A DNA stretch of 64,000 bases from Methylocystis sp. (lineage in GTDB: Bacteria; Pseudomonadota; Alphaproteobacteria; Rhizobiales; Beijerinckiaceae): assembly GCA_020252485.1 (NCBI GenBank), contig JADCCX010000014.1, forward strand, positions 1 through 64,000, read 5' to 3'. Positions 9,563 through 62,477 of this stretch are shown here, one piece after another; position 1 is the stretch's first letter; every line of letters starts with the position of its first letter. The translations under genes and the position numbers were made by a program. Under the pieces are notes generated by a model. It did no database searches, was not told the DNA's origin, and saw only the letters and a list, made by a program, of their open reading frames with translations.

Positions 9563-10152
9563 GATCCGACCCTGAAAAGCGGCGATTCCTTCGCGCCGAA
9601 ATCCGGCGGCGTCAAGGCAGAAAAACCGTATATTTCAGCGACTTGCTGAACGATCATTCAGGAGCGGCGGACATTGCGAAAATTTAATCGCAAAAATTCA
9701 CCATCGGGGGTCATTTCCGCTTGCAATGGCGAGCGTTTGTAGTACCTCTCCTCTCGCCCAATTTCGCACGTGCCTGTGGTTGCGTGCCGGTCGGTGGATC
9801 TCCGGACAAGAGGCCGGAAAAACGCCAACAGTGCTTGAAGTGTCTTGATGGAAACTTCCATCGCTGGACATTTCGCGGACCGGCAGCCGGAGGCGAAAAC
9901 CGGCGGCCCTGCCCGAAGCAGGTGACGCAGCTCAAAGCAACGACGGAGCGGGCTTTTTTAGGCTCTTGTCGGCCCCTCCAAAGGCCGGCGAACTAAAGAG
10001 GCTTGTCCATCTTGCCGGCCGTGCGGTGGGTCTATTCCCCCCAATCGAAAGCGGTTCTCTTTTGAAGTGTCGGCGCAAGCCGGGATTTCACGGGAGGGGT
10101 TTGCTTACGGCGTCACTCGCGCCGGCGAAAGCCGGCATCGGTAGCGATCTTC
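9563..10152. other. Long intergenic region between opgG and the decarboxylase leader
   Basis: About 590 bases between divergent genes with no convincing protein. It should hold the opgG promoter (minus strand; AT-rich 9650-9700) and the promoter and 5' leader of the decarboxylase. Noted structures: a GCCCG (9911-9915) to CGGGC (9949-9953) pairing followed by TTTTTTA (9954-9960), terminator-like but with a long loop, and GCCGGC GAAA GCCGGC at 10121-10136. Confidence 0.5.
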
Positions 10153-25569: not shown

Positions 25570-25624
25570 ACCATGCGATCCGCCGCCCTTGCGGCCCGAT
25601 CCTCTGCCGACTATAGATAACGTT

Positions 25625-25739
25625 ATCTCGTCGGGGTGCCCGAAGGATCGCCAGATCCGGGCTGAGAGATGGACAGGCGCAAGCCTTGATATCAACCCGC
25701 CGAACCTGATCCGGGTTATGCCGGCGGAGGAATCGAGAT
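25625..25739 (+). ncRNA. TPP (thiamine pyrophosphate) riboswitch
   Basis: Contains the invariant thi-box parts TCGGGGTGCCC (25631-25641), GGGCTGAGA (25659-25667) and CCTGATCCGGGTTATGCCGG (25705-25724). The 3' part of P4 overlaps the GGAGG ribosome binding site (25726-25730). P1 can be closed by ATCTCG (25625-25630) with CGAGAT (25734-25739), which includes the first two bases of the permease start codon, so ligand binding should block translation initiation. GATAACGTTATC (25616-25627), a perfect 12-bp palindrome, overlaps the 5' side of P1. Confidence 0.95.
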
Positions 25740-26592
25740 GTCCCTGGCCCTTGAGGGCAGCGGCGCTGGCCGCCAGAACGCTGCCATCCTGTCCCCGCGA
25801 AAAGTTTCTGCGGCCCTGTTGTCTCTGCTGCGATTGCTGCTGAAGCCGCAGGTTGTGGCCCTGCTGGGCGCAGCATTGCTCTGGGAAGGAGCAGTGCGGT
25901 TTTTCCAGATCCCGCTGTGGTATCTGCCGCCGCCCAGCCACATCGCGGTCACCGTCTATCGCAACTTCTCCTACATCCTGCCCAGCGCCGGGATCACAGC
26001 CCTCGAGACGCTGCTTGGGCTGCTGATCGGCATCGCGATCGGGATGGCGCTGGCGCTCGGCATGGCGGCCTCGCGCTGGCTGGCTGAGGCGCTCTCGCCG
26101 CTCGCGGTCGTCAGCCAGGCGATCCCCTTCATTGCGCTCGCGCCCCTGATGATGATCTGGTTCGGCTTCGGGATCACGTCGAAGATTGCGATGGCCGCCA
26201 TCACGATCTTCTTCTCGGTCACCGCGGCCTTCTACGAGGGCCTGCGGCGGACAGATGAGAACCTGCTCGATCTGGCGAGGCTCTACGGCGCTTCGCCCGC
26301 ACAGATCCTGTTCAGCATCAGGGTTCCGGCCGCGCTGCCGCATCTCGCGGCGGGCCTGAAGCTCGCGGCCGCCTACGCGCCGCTTGGCGCCATCGCCGGC
26401 GAATGGGTGGGCTCGGACGGCGGGCTCGGCATCATGATGACCTATCACAACGCCCGCATGCAGACCGACATGGTCTTCGCCGCCATGGTGGTGCTGATCG
26501 CCTTCTGCCTCGCCAACTGGCTTCTGATGTCGCTGCTGACCCGTTATCTGCTGCGCCATTTCCCCGACACGCTGAGCCAACGCGCCGCCTGA
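25738..26592 (+). CDS. thiX: ThiX-type ABC transporter permease (pyrimidine/thiamine precursor)
   Basis: 284 residues with about six membrane helices. The BPD_transp_1 EAA loop is near DLARLYGASPAQILFSIRVPAALPHLAAGLKLA. The upstream helix region LALGMAASRWLAEALSPLAVVSQAIPFIALAPLMMIWFG is typical of nitrate/sulfonate/HMP-type permeases. Control by a TPP riboswitch and pairing with a ThiY-type binding protein indicate import of a thiamine pyrimidine precursor. The start lies inside the riboswitch P1 region. No ATPase gene (thiZ) is found nearby. Confidence 0.9.
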   Translation: MSLALEGSGAGRQNAAILSPRKVSAALLSLLRLLLKPQVVALLGAALLWEGAVRFFQIPLWYLPPPSHIAVTVYRNFSYILPSAGITALETLLGLLIGIAIGMALALGMAASRWLAEALSPLAVVSQAIPFIALAPLMMIWFGFGITSKIAMAAITIFFSVTAAFYEGLRRTDENLLDLARLYGASPAQILFSIRVPAALPHLAAGLKLAAAYAPLGAIAGEWVGSDGGLGIMMTYHNARMQTDMVFAAMVVLIAFCLANWLLMSLLTRYLLRHFPDTLSQRAA

Positions 26593-52295: not shown

Positions 52296-52697
52296 ATGTT
52301 TTCCGTTGAAGTGCGTGACCGCATCATGATCGCCCATTCGCTGCCCGATCCCTTCTTCGGGCCAGCGCAGAACAAACATGGCGCGACCTTCGTCGTGGAT
52401 GTCGCCTTCTATCGGGAGAAGATGACAGCGCAGAACGTCGTGGTCGATATCGGCGCTGCGCTCGACGTGCTCAACCGGACGTTGAAACCCCTCGCTTATC
52501 AGGACCTCGACACCCTGCCGCAATTCAAGGGAATCCTGACAACGACAGAGTTCCTTTGCAAATATGTTTTCGATGCGATGGCCGCAGCCGCGAAGGGCGG
52601 CGCGCTTGGCGCTGACGGACAGGGGCTCACGAAAATCCGTGTGACCCTGCATGAAACCGATCTCGCGCGCGCCGCCTATGAAGGCGCGGTTGCTTGA
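52296..52697 (+). CDS. 6-pyruvoyl-tetrahydropterin synthase (QueD/PTPS) homologue lacking catalytic residues
   Basis: 133 residues. The fold is recognisable: IMIAHSLPDPF (zinc His14), NKHGATFVVDVAFY (His28, but Ala30 where the third zinc His of HGH should be), VVDIGAALDVLNRTL (the VxDF-like strand), LPQFKGILTTTEFLCKYVFDAM and KIRVTLHET (substrate Glu). The catalytic Cys preceding HGH and the D-H-H of the usual DHH(Y/R)LND are missing (LAYQDLDTLP). It may bind a pterin without the normal chemistry. It overlaps the next gene by 4 bases. Confidence 0.72.
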   Translation: MFSVEVRDRIMIAHSLPDPFFGPAQNKHGATFVVDVAFYREKMTAQNVVVDIGAALDVLNRTLKPLAYQDLDTLPQFKGILTTTEFLCKYVFDAMAAAAKGGALGADGQGLTKIRVTLHETDLARAAYEGAVA

Positions 52698-53734
52698 TCG
52701 CTGTCGCCTTCTGCATCCCTGGCAATATCGGGCTGCCGACCGGCGGCTATCGCTACGACCGGGAGATTCTGGCGCGGCTCCCGGCATTGGGCGTAGCCTG
52801 CGCGCATGTTGCGCTGGACGGCAGCTTCCCATTTCCTTCTCCTGTGGTGCTGGCCGATTCAGAGAGCGTTCTGCGGTCAATCGACCAGAACAGGCTGCTC
52901 CTCATCGACGGTCTGGCGCTGGGCGCGATGCCCGCCGCCATGATCGCCGCGCTGCCGCATCGCGTGGTCGCGCTCGTCCACCATCCACTCGGTTTGGAGG
53001 CCGGGCTCGCTCCCGAGCAGGCGCAGCAACTGCTCGCCAACGAGAAGGCCGTGCTCGGCTGCGTCCGCCATGTCATCGTGACGAGCGCCACGACCAGAGA
53101 CCTGCTCATCTCCGATTTCGCCGTGGCCGAACGATCGATCACCGTCGCGGAACCGGGAACCGACCGGGCTGCGCGGAGCGCCGGCGGCGGCGATCCCGTC
53201 CGGATTCTCGCGGTGGGCGCCGTTTCGCCCCGCAAGGCCTATGACCTGCTCGTCGAAGCCCTTGCTCCCCTGACCGATCTTGACTGGCGGCTGACCATCG
53301 CCGGATCGCTGACCCTGGCGCCCGAGGCCGTGAGCCAGCTTCAGGCGGCCATCGTCCGCGCCGGTCTGGCGGAGCGCATCACGCTCGCCGGCGCCCTGAG
53401 CGAGCCCGAACTGGATGCGCTTTACGCGAAAGCAGACCTGTTCGCGATGTCCTCCCTGTTCGAAGGCTATGGCATGGCGCTGACGGAAGCGCTGGCGCAT
53501 GGCCTGCCGATCGTCTCGTCAACCGGCGGGGCGGCCGCCGCAACGCTGCCCGAGGCCGCAGCGCTCAAGATTCCGCCCGGCGACGTGCCGGCTTTGCGTA
53601 CGGCGCTGGCCCGCGTGATCGCCGACAAGGCCTTGCGGCGGCGCATGGCCGATGCCAGTTGGGCGGCGGCGGCGCTGTTGCCCGCATGGGATGACACGGC
53701 GCGCGAGATCGCCGACGTTCTGAAGTCGATCTGA
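52694..53734 (+). CDS. GT4-family glycosyltransferase
   Basis: 346 residues from a TTG at 52694 overlapping the upstream stop. GT-B fold: N-terminal IPGNIGLPTGGYRYDREIL, C-terminal RILAVGAVSPRKAYDLLVEAL and SSLFEGYGMALTEALAHGLPIVSS, the E-x7-E nucleotide-sugar motif of GT4. Retaining glycosyl transfer; the acceptor is unknown. It is flanked by the pterin-synthase-like gene and a methyltransferase in one operon, suggesting a glycosylated, methylated small molecule. Confidence 0.88.
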   Translation: MIAVAFCIPGNIGLPTGGYRYDREILARLPALGVACAHVALDGSFPFPSPVVLADSESVLRSIDQNRLLLIDGLALGAMPAAMIAALPHRVVALVHHPLGLEAGLAPEQAQQLLANEKAVLGCVRHVIVTSATTRDLLISDFAVAERSITVAEPGTDRAARSAGGGDPVRILAVGAVSPRKAYDLLVEALAPLTDLDWRLTIAGSLTLAPEAVSQLQAAIVRAGLAERITLAGALSEPELDALYAKADLFAMSSLFEGYGMALTEALAHGLPIVSSTGGAAAATLPEAAALKIPPGDVPALRTALARVIADKALRRRMADASWAAAALLPAWDDTAREIADVLKSI

Positions 53735-53746
53735 GGAGTTTGCCGC

Positions 53747-54589
53747 ATGAGTTTCAGCGCTGAATGGCTGTCGCTTCGGGAGCCGGCCGACCACGCCGCG
53801 CTGAATGCAGATGTGCGCCAGGCGCTGAGGCGGCGTTTCGAGGGCCGCGACGCTATTGCCGTGGTCGATCTTGGCTGCGGCGCGGGCTCGAACCTCAGGG
53901 GAACCTGGGCGGCCCTTCCGGCGCGGCAATCCTGGACGTTGGTCGATTATGACGCCCGGCTGCTTGCTGCGGCGCGGGAAAAGCTGATCGAATGGGCCGA
54001 TGCGGCCTCCATCTCCGGCGATGCGCTCAGCCTTCGCAAGGGCAGCGCCACGCTGGAGGTGAGCTTCCGCCAGGTCGATCTTTCCGGAGGCAATTTCGCC
54101 GGGGTGACGGAGGGCGCCGATCTCGTCACGGCGGCGGCGCTGTTCGATCTCGTCTCGCCCTCCGGCATCGAGGCGCTGGCCGCCTCGCTCGCCGCCCGCG
54201 GGCAGACCTTCTTCACGGTCCTGACCTACGATGGCGAGGCAAGCTGGCGCCCCTCGCACCCCGCCGACTCCGCTATTCTGGCGGCATTCAACGCCCATCA
54301 GACGAGCGACAAGGGCTTCGGGCCTGCCGCCGGACCGGGCGCAACCGACGCGCTGGCCAAGGCGTTCCACCGGCGCGGATATGGCGTCCTGCGCGGCGCA
54401 AGCCCCTGGTTGCTCGACCGCTCCTTCGCCCGATTGCGGGCGGAGCTGGACCGCGGGTTCGCCAATGCCGCCCTCGAGACCGGCCTTGTGCCGTCCGGGG
54501 ACGTTTCCGCCTGGCTGGCGCATCGCCTCGCGGGCGGCGAGCGCCTGTCGATCATCGGCCACGAGGATCTGCTGGCGACTCCGGAGTGA
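53747..54589 (+). CDS. Class I SAM-dependent methyltransferase
   Basis: 280 residues. Motif I VVDLGCGAGSNLRGTWAALP, acidic end of strand 2 TLVDYDARLLAAA, motif for strand 4 ADLVTAAALFDLVSP. The C-terminal 80 residues are unrecognised (FHRRGYGVLRGASPWLLDRSFARL). It lacks features that would name the substrate. Third gene of the operon, 12 bases after the glycosyltransferase; ATG 53747 follows GAGGAG. Confidence 0.87.
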   Translation: MSFSAEWLSLREPADHAALNADVRQALRRRFEGRDAIAVVDLGCGAGSNLRGTWAALPARQSWTLVDYDARLLAAAREKLIEWADAASISGDALSLRKGSATLEVSFRQVDLSGGNFAGVTEGADLVTAAALFDLVSPSGIEALAASLAARGQTFFTVLTYDGEASWRPSHPADSAILAAFNAHQTSDKGFGPAAGPGATDALAKAFHRRGYGVLRGASPWLLDRSFARLRAELDRGFANAALETGLVPSGDVSAWLAHRLAGGERLSIIGHEDLLATPE

Positions 54590-54597
54590 GGTCTCGC

Positions 54598-55176
54598 CTA
54601 GCGGGGCTTCAGGCCCGGCAGCATCCGCCGCAGCACATTGTCCTTGCGGATGAAGTGATGGAACAACGCCGCGCCGATATGGACAACGACAAGCCCCGTC
54701 AGGAGGAAAGCCCCGAGCTTGTGAAACGTGAAAATTGTTTCGGCGAGCTTGTCATTGGGCGCAGTAAGGGCGGGAAGGCTGAGGCCGAACGGAATGCCCA
54801 GCGCCGGATAGAGTGAAACGCCGATCCATCCCAGCAGCGGCACGACAAGCAGCAGGCCGTAGAGAACCCAATGGACGAGGTGAGACGCTGTCTTCTGCAG
54901 CGGGGCGAGCGTCGGCTCGTTCTTTGGCGCTCCCTTGATGAACCGGAAGGCGAGCCGCGCCACGACGATCCACAGCAGGATGAACCCCGCCAGCTTGTGA
55001 TTGGAGTAGAGTGTGTTGGTGAATGCGTCAAAGTTGGTCGCCTCGCCGCGATACACCATATACATTCCGACCGGCACGAGGATGAAGACGAAGACGGCCG
55101 TGACCCAGTGGAAATGCCGCGCTCCTGCCGGATAGGTCCCGGGATTGCCACTTGTCTCCAACTTGCTTTCCGCCAT
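54598..55176 (-). CDS. Cytochrome b561-type membrane protein
   Basis: 192 residues, four membrane helices. ARHFHWVTAVFVFILVPVGMY with His ligands, NHKLAGFILLWIVVARLAFRF (His), HLVHWVLYGLLLVVPLLGW (His) and FHKLGAFLLTGLVVVHIGAALFHHF (His) are the cytochrome b561 heme ligands. It probably oxidises quinol or transfers electrons to superoxide in the membrane (CybB-like). Convergent with the methyltransferase operon. Confidence 0.92.
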   Translation of the reverse strand: MAESKLETSGNPGTYPAGARHFHWVTAVFVFILVPVGMYMVYRGEATNFDAFTNTLYSNHKLAGFILLWIVVARLAFRFIKGAPKNEPTLAPLQKTASHLVHWVLYGLLLVVPLLGWIGVSLYPALGIPFGLSLPALTAPNDKLAETIFTFHKLGAFLLTGLVVVHIGAALFHHFIRKDNVLRRMLPGLKPR

Positions 55177-60472: not shown

Positions 60473-61183
60473 ATGACACGGGTTTTTCCACTGGACAGCA
60501 TGAAGGCGCATCCCGCCTCGCTGTCGCCGGATTACAAGAGCAGCCTCCGCCGTTCGCCGAGCCAGCCGCTGGTGATCATCCCGCCATCCATGACGGAGAT
60601 CACCGGACCCTTGTTCGGGCACAACGCCGTGCGCGCCGACGAGGCGGACCTGACGAAGCAGCACAAGGGCGAGCCGCTGGGCGAGCGCATCATCGTCGCC
60701 GGCCGCGTGCTCGACGAGGATGGGCGACCGGTTCCCAACACGCTGATCGAGGTCTGGCAGGCCAATGCCGCCGGGCGCTATGTGCATGCCGTCGACCAGC
60801 ATCCCGCGCCGCTCGACCCCAATTTCACCGGCGCGGGCCGGGCCGTGACCGATGCGGAGGGGCGCTACCGCTTCGTCACCGTGAAGCCCGGCTCCTATCC
60901 CTGGCGCAACCATCACAACGCCTGGCGGCCGGCGCATATCCACTTGTCGCTTTTCGGCGCCTCGTTCCTCAGCCGCATGGTGACGCAGATGTATTTCCCC
61001 GGCGACCCGTTGTTCGCCTTCGATCCGATCTACAATGCGGTGCCTGACGAGAAGGCGCGCCAGCGGATGGTCTCGTCCTTCGCGCTCGATCTGACGGAGC
61101 CCGAATGGGCGCTCGGCTACCGTTTCGACGTCATCCTGCGCGGCCGCAACGCCACGCCGATGGAGGAGCCGCATGATGACTGA
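60473..61183 (+). CDS. pcaH: Protocatechuate 3,4-dioxygenase beta subunit
   Basis: 236 residues. The N-terminal PcaH domain (HPASLSPDYKSSLRRSPSQPLVIIPPSMTEITGPLFG) and the intradiol core GRVLDEDGRPVPNTLIEVWQANAAGRYVHAVDQ (Tyr ligand), YPWRNHHNAWRPAHIHLSLFG (Tyr and two His ligands of Fe(III)). It cleaves protocatechuate to 3-carboxymuconate with PcaG. GGGGGAGCC precedes ATG 60473; overlaps pcaG by 11 bases. Confidence 0.97.
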   Translation: MTRVFPLDSMKAHPASLSPDYKSSLRRSPSQPLVIIPPSMTEITGPLFGHNAVRADEADLTKQHKGEPLGERIIVAGRVLDEDGRPVPNTLIEVWQANAAGRYVHAVDQHPAPLDPNFTGAGRAVTDAEGRYRFVTVKPGSYPWRNHHNAWRPAHIHLSLFGASFLSRMVTQMYFPGDPLFAFDPIYNAVPDEKARQRMVSSFALDLTEPEWALGYRFDVILRGRNATPMEEPHDD

Positions 61184-61766
61184 TCGTCCGGACGGCATCA
61201 CGCCTTCGCAGACGGTGGGCCCCTTCTTCCATTACATGCTGACACCGCATGCCTATGATGTGGCCGAACTCTTCGAGAGCGACCTGACCGCCGGAACCGG
61301 CCTCACCCAAACGATCCGGATCGAGGGCCGCATCCTCGATGCCGATGGCGAGCCGACGACCGACACGCTCGTTGAAATCTGGCAGGCCGATGCCAGCGGC
61401 CGATACGCGACGAGCGAAGCCGTGCTGGAAGGCAACCGGCGGCCTTTCCACGGCTTTGGCCGCTCTGACACCGACAGGCAGGGCATCTTCCGGTTCACGA
61501 CGATCAGGCCCGGACGCGTGCCCGGCGCCGATGGCAAGCTTCAGGCGCCGCATATCGCCGTCAATGTCCTGGGCCGTGGCCTGCTCCGCCACCTGACGAC
61601 GCGCTTCTACTTTGCCGGCGAGCCCGCGAACGCCGGGGATCAGGTGCTGGGCCTCGTGCCCGCCGCCCGGCACGAGACGCTGATGCTCAAGCCGGGCGCG
61701 GATGGCGTCTGGCGGATCGACATCCGCCTGGGCGGCGAAGGCGAGACGGTGTTCTTCGGCGTTTAG
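61173..61766 (+). CDS. pcaG: Protocatechuate 3,4-dioxygenase alpha subunit
   Basis: 197 residues. PDGITPSQTVGPFFHYMLTP opening, IRIEGRILDADGEPTTDTLVEIWQADASGRYAT, and FHGFGRSDTDRQGIFRFTTIRPGRVP, LQAPHIAVNVLGRGLLRHLTTRFYF match PcaG, the non-catalytic partner. It starts inside pcaH (ATG 61173 or 61176) and is last in the operon. pcaB, C and D are not in this window. Confidence 0.96.
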   Translation: MMTDRPDGITPSQTVGPFFHYMLTPHAYDVAELFESDLTAGTGLTQTIRIEGRILDADGEPTTDTLVEIWQADASGRYATSEAVLEGNRRPFHGFGRSDTDRQGIFRFTTIRPGRVPGADGKLQAPHIAVNVLGRGLLRHLTTRFYFAGEPANAGDQVLGLVPAARHETLMLKPGADGVWRIDIRLGGEGETVFFGV

Positions 61767-61778
61767 AGTCCGTCGATC

Positions 61779-62477
61779 CTACACATGCAGGAACCGGTCG
61801 ACTTCGGACCGTTGCGCGCTGAGGTCCGCCGATGTTCCCGTCCACACAACGCGCCCCTTCTCGATCACCACATGCCGGTTGGCGAGCGGCAGCAGCGCGT
61901 CGAGATGCTTGTCGATGACGAGGATCGACTGCCCCTCGTCGCGCAGCTGGCCGAGCGCCGCCCAGATCTCGGCCCGGATGAGCGGCGCCAGACCCTCCGT
62001 CGCCTCGTCAAGGATCAGGAGCTTCGGATTGGTCATCAGGGCGCGGCCGATCGCCAGCATCTGCTGCTCGCCGCCGGAAAGCTGGTTGCCGAAATTGCCG
62101 CGGCGCTCCTTGAGGCGCGGGAAGAAAGCGTAGACGGCGGCCAGATCGAACCGCGCCTTGCCGCTGCGGTTGGCGGCGGTGGCGATGAGGTTCTCCTCCA
62201 CCGTCAGCGTCGGGAACACCTGCCGCCCTTCCGGCACGAGGCCGAGGCCCGCCTGCGCCATGCGGTAGGGCGGCGCGCCGGTCAATTCCCGGCCCTCGAA
62301 GGCAATGCTGCCGCCGCGTGTCGGCATCAGGCCCATGATCGTGCGGATCGTGGTCGTCTTGCCCATGCCGTTGCGGCCGAGCAGGCTGACGACCTCCCCG
62401 GCCTCGACCTTGAAACCGATGCCGAAGAGCACCTGTGCCGCGCCATAGCCGGCTTCCAGCTTGGCGATTTCAAGCAT
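61779..62477 (-). CDS. livF: Branched-chain/aromatic ABC transporter ATPase LivF
   Basis: 232 residues from ATG 62477. Walker A LLGRNGMGKTTTIRT, signature NQLSGGEQQMLAIGRAL, Walker B PKLLILDEATEGL, His switch LVIDKHLDALLPL. LivF-type: GLGLVPEGRQVFPTLTVEENL. Overlaps livG by 8 bases. Convergent with pcaG, 12 bases apart. Such systems import branched-chain amino acids or aromatic acids. Confidence 0.95.
   Translation of the reverse strand: MLEIAKLEAGYGAAQVLFGIGFKVEAGEVVSLLGRNGMGKTTTIRTIMGLMPTRGGSIAFEGRELTGAPPYRMAQAGLGLVPEGRQVFPTLTVEENLIATAANRSGKARFDLAAVYAFFPRLKERRGNFGNQLSGGEQQMLAIGRALMTNPKLLILDEATEGLAPLIRAEIWAALGQLRDEGQSILVIDKHLDALLPLANRHVVIEKGRVVWTGTSADLSAQRSEVDRFLHV

Follow-up and report, generated by a model that had tools for sequence, protein, structure and literature searches.

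A conserved four-gene core around a PTPS-IV protein in Methylocystis and its relatives, with a possible origin in early riboflavin synthesis

A dehydrogenase, a PTPS-IV protein, a GT4-family glycosyltransferase and a SAM-dependent methyltransferase (MT) form a four-gene core that is well supported as one pathway unit. The genes for the last three lie together in the window, that is, the whole stretch of 64,000 nucleotides analysed here from Methylocystis sp. (contig JADCCX010000014.1, positions 1 to 64,000), and the dehydrogenase gene is located on another contig of the same genome. We put at roughly 0.55 the probability that this core branches off early riboflavin synthesis and leads from GTP to a glycosylated, methylated pyrimidine or pterin. 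The features concerned are listed below.

52296..52697, + strand: PTPS-IV gene (T-fold, COG0720), 133 aa; Pfam PTPS, match to 3d7j, conservation over 114 homologues
52356..52370, + strand: FGPAQ codons, the PTPS-IV signature, residues 21-25; found in 110 of 114 homologues
52377..52385, + strand: His28-Gly29-Ala30 codons (HGA replacing HGH); invariant in 114 of 114 homologues
52694..53734, + strand: GT4-family (GT-B) glycosyltransferase gene, 346 aa, TTG start; Pfam, NCBIfam, 6kih/7qsg, E257/E265
53747..54589, + strand: class I SAM-dependent methyltransferase gene (MT), 280 aa; Pfam, AF2 model, fold search
54598..55176, - strand: cytochrome b561 gene (PF01292), convergent neighbour and recurrent cluster accessory; Pfam
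G000:C129:59509-60492 and 60610-62397 (L149:9510-12398): dehydrogenase and mdoH genes, a divergent pair on the other contig

The PTPS/GT4/MT trio is a tight operon. All three genes are on the + strand, the PTPS stop and the GT4 TTG start overlap by four bases (TTGA), and a 12-base gap separates GT4 from MT. A first-pass annotation of this DNA had described three overlapping or closely spaced genes, the second and third encoding a GT4 enzyme and a SAM methyltransferase; the layout is as it stated, and Pfam bears out both identities (Glycos_transf_1, E 3.6e-25; Methyltransf_25, E 2.7e-06). A divergent pgsA-moaD-moaE set adjoins the trio in this genome. An Rfam search of the operon and of seven related loci detected neither a riboswitch nor any other Rfam element. 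Elsewhere in the window, directly adjoining matches to the sRNA ar45 and the speF leader at 9756-10141 (+) suggest a single regulatory leader region, and a TPP riboswitch aptamer scores over the gathering threshold at 25622-25749 (+).

The PTPS protein was recognised by Pfam (PTPS, E 4.9e-19), and the NCBIfam QueD model (TIGR03367) gave 27 bits, far under its cut-off of 89. Across 114 distinct homologues, H14, H28, A30, D51, D72, E85 and E120 are invariant. The zinc site is reduced, with His14 and His28 kept and Ala30 in place of the third His. Alignment to solved PTPS shows Ala-Tyr replacing the catalytic Asp-His pair; the sole cysteine, Cys88, is away from the catalytic position, and no Cys precedes HGA. 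The canonical PTPS/QueD pattern of Cys-(x)n-HGH with the Asp-His pair is absent from the window protein. Conservation of T83/T84/E85 and E120 preserves the Thr-Thr/Ser-Glu and C-terminal Glu anchoring motif, which is predicted to hold a pterin. The residue claims of the first-pass annotation (His14 and His28 present, Ala third, no catalytic Cys, no DHH) all hold, and its altered PTPS with probable substrate-anchoring residues is supported; nothing was found in favour of its other suggestion, that PTPS acts as a carrier.

Judged by its sequence, and in particular by FGPAQ, the protein is a member of the named subfamily PTPS-IV. Among solved proteins it comes closest to Streptomyces coelicolor SCO6650 (PDB 3d7j), with a full-length match at E 2.4e-35. 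The HGA, T/S-T-E and HE motifs are common to both proteins, which differ in that only about half of their residues are identical. Its depositors reportedly described SCO6650 as having no zinc and no catalytic triad and as inactive as PTPS, with possible pterin-holding residues retained. PMC5445326 names FGPAQ as the PTPS-IV signature and places a cyclohydrolase (PF00925) and RibD_C (PF01872) in the neighbourhood. Since the subfamily has been named and 3d7j solved, a PTPS that is altered and probably binds a ligand is no novelty in itself. The earlier idea of a possible undescribed pathway keeps its force, as far as the literature searched shows, for the gene core, and loses it for the subfamily, its solved structure and its RibA/RibD context, published in PMC5445326.

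For the GT4 protein, NCBIfam concurs with Pfam and the nearest solved chains are 6kih and 7qsg. The E-x7-E motif of GT-B/GT4 enzymes is kept (E257...E265), with E257 near-invariant. MT has a conserved SAM site, D-x-G-x-G-x-G (D41/G43/G45/G47), and its AF2 model (pLDDT 96), together with Foldseek, predicts a Rossmann-fold class I enzyme. The Foldseek search gave many matches at a TM of about 0.6 or less and no clue to the substrate; MT is a family of its own, without a close solved relative.

The fourth core gene, not in the first-pass annotation, encodes a 330-aa dehydrogenase. It lies directly upstream of PTPS in 61 of the 65 full-length close loci sampled, and likewise in distant classes. 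The annotation reads 'zinc-binding alcohol dehydrogenase'; judged by motifs, with no structure alignment, the protein lacks the Cys in G-x-C and the His in GHE of zinc alcohol dehydrogenases, and S44-R-G-T-E48 (SRGTE) and G80-Y81 (GYQ/GYC) are conserved where the catalytic zinc ligands are expected. Its best NCBIfam match is BchC, far under the cut-off. In the window's genome the gene is divergent from mdoH, which relatives also have there. The trio and the dehydrogenase are two halves separated in this genome, and relatives carry the trio directly after the dehydrogenase. Trios without an adjoining dehydrogenase also occur in L041, L045, L047, L053, L058 and L073.

The distribution of the core was followed in 240 alphaproteobacterial genomes, related by descent (the window's genome is G000). 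The 30 genomes with PTPS-IV are precisely the 30 with the dehydrogenase; MT is present in 29 of those 30 and in none of the others. The gap is G053, whose PTPS sits at a contig end, and in G233 MT is present though far from PTPS. GT4 and MT follow PTPS in essentially every full locus. The hypergeometric p for the match between PTPS-IV and the dehydrogenase is about 7e-39 with shared ancestry ignored, a value that is too small because the sampled genomes are kin, chance being excluded all the same. Distance correlations among the four core proteins (0.58-0.78) do not exceed what common descent could produce and carry no weight here. The order dehydrogenase-PTPS-GT4-MT is conserved in Alphaproteobacteria, Gammaproteobacteria and Actinomycetota, and variant clusters were identified in Microbacterium, Agrobacterium, Methylosinus, Palleronia and the gammaproteobacterium Thiodictyon. 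The first-pass annotation had proposed the trio as a functional unit and had made this depend on its co-occurrence in other genomes. The neighbourhood survey found that co-occurrence, and the unit stands; it was drawn too small, without the dehydrogenase and a riboflavin-type supply module. On Streptomyces plasmids (L161, L163), PTPS-IV-like genes stand alone among cupin and MBL-fold genes, with none of dehydrogenase, GT4 and MT, possibly a side branch of the subfamily in another context.

The supply module is seen in the relatives. In 22 of the 30 genomes, counted from coordinates, a stand-alone RibD_C reductase is encoded no more than about 4 kb from PTPS-IV, and in 8 of the 30 no RibD is beside the cluster; Bosea loci and L002 likewise have no RibD-like neighbour. 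Among solved structures, the RibD-like protein is closest to a 2,5-diamino-6-ribosylaminopyrimidinone phosphate reductase. RibA adjoins the cluster in many loci, a creatininase-family protein recurs less often, and the cyclohydrolase beside the cluster is type II (PF00925). This RibA/RibD_C neighbourhood is absent from the window itself. In the 1.6 Mb genome G161, creatininase, dehydrogenase, PTPS, GT4, MT, RibD and RibA are encoded in one stretch, and no RibD_C besides this one was detected in that genome. The resemblance to riboflavin synthesis lies in the families that recur beside the core genes, RibA, RibD and the archaeal ArfB-type (creatininase-fold) deformylase. Unlike in that system, the cluster RibD-like protein has no deaminase fused to it, and the neighbours of these genes are GT4, MT and PTPS-IV instead of ribB, ribE and ribH.

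Searches of the window's genome turned up a single full RibA and a single canonical RibD. The supply step is not dedicated there, because the only RibD is canonical and riboflavin synthesis appears to use this RibA as well. This weighs against the riboflavin-branch reading, as do the eight genomes in which the cluster has no RibD beside it. A riboflavin locus of this genome (L151:5555-7773, on G000:C107) encodes RibB with a RibA-like tail and RibD, and the only GTP cyclohydrolase II at E <= 1e-60 in G000 is on C129.

Streptomyces fungicidicus shows the order CDP-alcohol phosphatidyltransferase, dehydrogenase, PTPS, GT4, MT, multi-pass ORF, creatininase and RibA, in which the unlisted multi-pass ORF reads like the flippase-like family. 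Its stand-alone RibA (L156) has Met where other RibA have Tyr and adjoins the creatininase, a further difference of the actinomycete neighbourhood from that of the window protein. Counted from SCO6650, the Streptomyces order places RibA fifth among the genes that follow, in agreement with SCO6655, a cyclohydrolase II. The SCO6655 enzyme is reported to have Met for Tyr and to stop at the formyl stage; an adjoining deformylase of the creatininase family would be consistent with this. A general rule that the Tyr/Met state of RibA tracks creatininase fits Streptomyces and fails in Alphaproteobacteria, where Tyr is kept even beside a creatininase.

Several neighbours are membrane proteins. In the window the cytochrome b561 gene converges on the trio; the gene was also observed in 44 of the 65 full-length related loci and, differently arranged, with the clusters of Thiodictyon and Agrobacterium. 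The Streptomyces, Microbacterium and Agrobacterium clusters have CDP-alcohol phosphatidyltransferase and LPG_synthase_TM neighbours. These proteins suggest a membrane-linked or exported product, a link that the first-pass annotation had not foreseen. MdoH, the osmoregulated periplasmic glucan synthase, adjoins most Hyphomicrobiales loci. YceI-like periplasmic proteins are also encoded near distant clusters, at L129:6197-7120 (-) and, from the same family, in L121, L123 and L138; E. coli YceI is paired with cytochrome b561.

From the gene unit, the co-occurrence, the neighbours and the residue conservation we infer the reactions, their order and the product alike. RibA (GTP cyclohydrolase II) would open GTP to give 2,5-diamino-6-ribosylaminopyrimidinone phosphate; in Streptomyces, the creatininase-family protein would deformylate the formyl intermediate. 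A RibD-like reductase would then produce the ribityl form. PTPS-IV may hold the 2-amino-4-oxopyrimidine edge through Thr-Thr-Glu and the second Glu and carry out a zinc-free reaction, and the dehydrogenase may alter the oxidation state of the side chain. GT4 would attach a sugar, and MT would cap the product by methylation. The CDP-alcohol phosphatidyltransferase, the flippase-like protein and cytochrome b561 could point to a membrane-associated, perhaps redox-active product. The glycosylated or methylated pterin of the first-pass annotation is retained in part: sugar transfer and methylation are still the leading idea, and the cluster neighbours favour an origin from GTP cyclohydrolase II over the pterin route through cyclohydrolase I. 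A more specific proposal, a new GTP-derived glycosylated, methylated pyrimidine or pterin cofactor that is linked to the membrane or carried across it, works with cytochrome b561 in membrane redox chemistry and is made through a novel reaction of a zinc-free PTPS-IV enzyme, is speculative and, on balance, unlikely.

GT4 could instead have a lipid or an envelope sugar as its substrate, which would count against the riboflavin-branch reading. On such an account the locus is a cell-envelope glycolipid cluster, in which the PTPS fold was recruited for a non-pterin reaction and GT4, the CDP-alcohol phosphatidyltransferase, the flippase-like protein and MdoH are the working parts. MdoH beside most Hyphomicrobiales loci, and beside the dehydrogenase in the window's genome, speaks for it, as do the CDP-alcohol phosphatidyltransferase and LPG_synthase_TM of the Streptomyces, Microbacterium and Agrobacterium clusters. 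However, no MdoH was seen in the inspected Gammaproteobacteria and Actinomycetota clusters, the pyrimidine enzymes RibD and RibA recur across classes, and the predicted pterin-anchoring residues of PTPS-IV are conserved; we regard this explanation as unlikely. A classical pterin glycoside, made from dihydroneopterin by the GTP cyclohydrolase I route with PTPS-IV as an altered pterin synthase, would account for a PTPS fold with anchoring residues beside GT4 and MT. It is rather improbable, given that the cluster cyclohydrolase is type II (PF00925) and accompanied by RibD_C, that the zinc and catalytic triad required for the dihydroneopterin reaction are absent, and that FolE was not found among the inspected annotated neighbours.

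It is very improbable that the protein serves as the cell's QueD in queuosine synthesis or as a substitute for FolB in folate synthesis. The idea draws on the fact that this is the only COG0720 protein in the window's genome, where FolB (PF02152) was undetected at 98.8% completeness, and on five genomes (G189, G035, G107, G128 and G229) that have QueC and no other COG0720 protein. Against it, QueC is absent in 16 of the 30 PTPS-IV genomes, the window's among them, which disfavours the queuosine role; FolB was found in 26 of the 30, nine have a second COG0720 protein, the zinc-site and catalytic residues have been lost, with invariant substitutes in their place, and the annotated neighbourhoods are without queuosine or folate genes. 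A secondary queuosine or folate role may exist in some hosts, given the FolB-less window's genome and the five QueC genomes. Coenzyme F420, too, derives from the ribitylaminopyrimidine branch. A role of PTPS-IV in its synthesis, given as an unpublished observation in PMC5041015, is the least credible reading and largely refuted for Alphaproteobacteria, as CofG, of the FO synthase pair CofG/CofH, is present in 6 of the 30 PTPS-IV genomes and absent in 24, including the window's, with a model that matches archaeal controls.

Toxoflavin-type pathways branch off riboflavin synthesis. They resemble the proposed riboflavin branch in using GTP cyclohydrolase II, a RibD-like protein and a methyltransferase to divert a riboflavin intermediate, and differ in that they are not known to have PTPS-IV, GT4 or the dehydrogenase. 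The cyanobacterial pterin glycosyltransferases also transfer sugar onto a pterin, but act on products of PTPS-II and GTP cyclohydrolase I. The PTPS-IV family treated in the accessible parts of PMC5445326 and PMC5041015 corresponds in FGPAQ and in the PF00925 and PF01872 neighbourhood; the dehydrogenase, GT4, MT, CDP-alcohol transferase, flippase-like protein and cytochrome b561 are not named in those parts, and the F420 assignment of PMC5041015 misfits these genomes. Literature searches on SCO6650, the gene combination and glycosylated pterin clusters returned no reports. The PTPS-IV subfamily and part of its gene neighbourhood are already known; as far as the literature searched shows, there is no earlier description of the four-gene core or of how strictly its genes co-occur, of the membrane accessories, or of the tests of F420, queuosine and folate roles.

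For PTPS-IV, a COG0720 subfamily that still lacks a demonstrated role, the core supplies concrete genes with which the making of an undescribed metabolite can be tested. In the plasmid records inspected, PTPS-IV proteins carry the label 6-carboxytetrahydropterin synthase (queuosine), and both the F420 and the queuosine labels misfit this group. Because the minimal gene set is small, genetics should be easy in the window's lineage. Roughly one in eight of the Alphaproteobacteria sampled has the core, its genes co-occurring almost perfectly, and Actinomycetota and Gammaproteobacteria carry versions of it.
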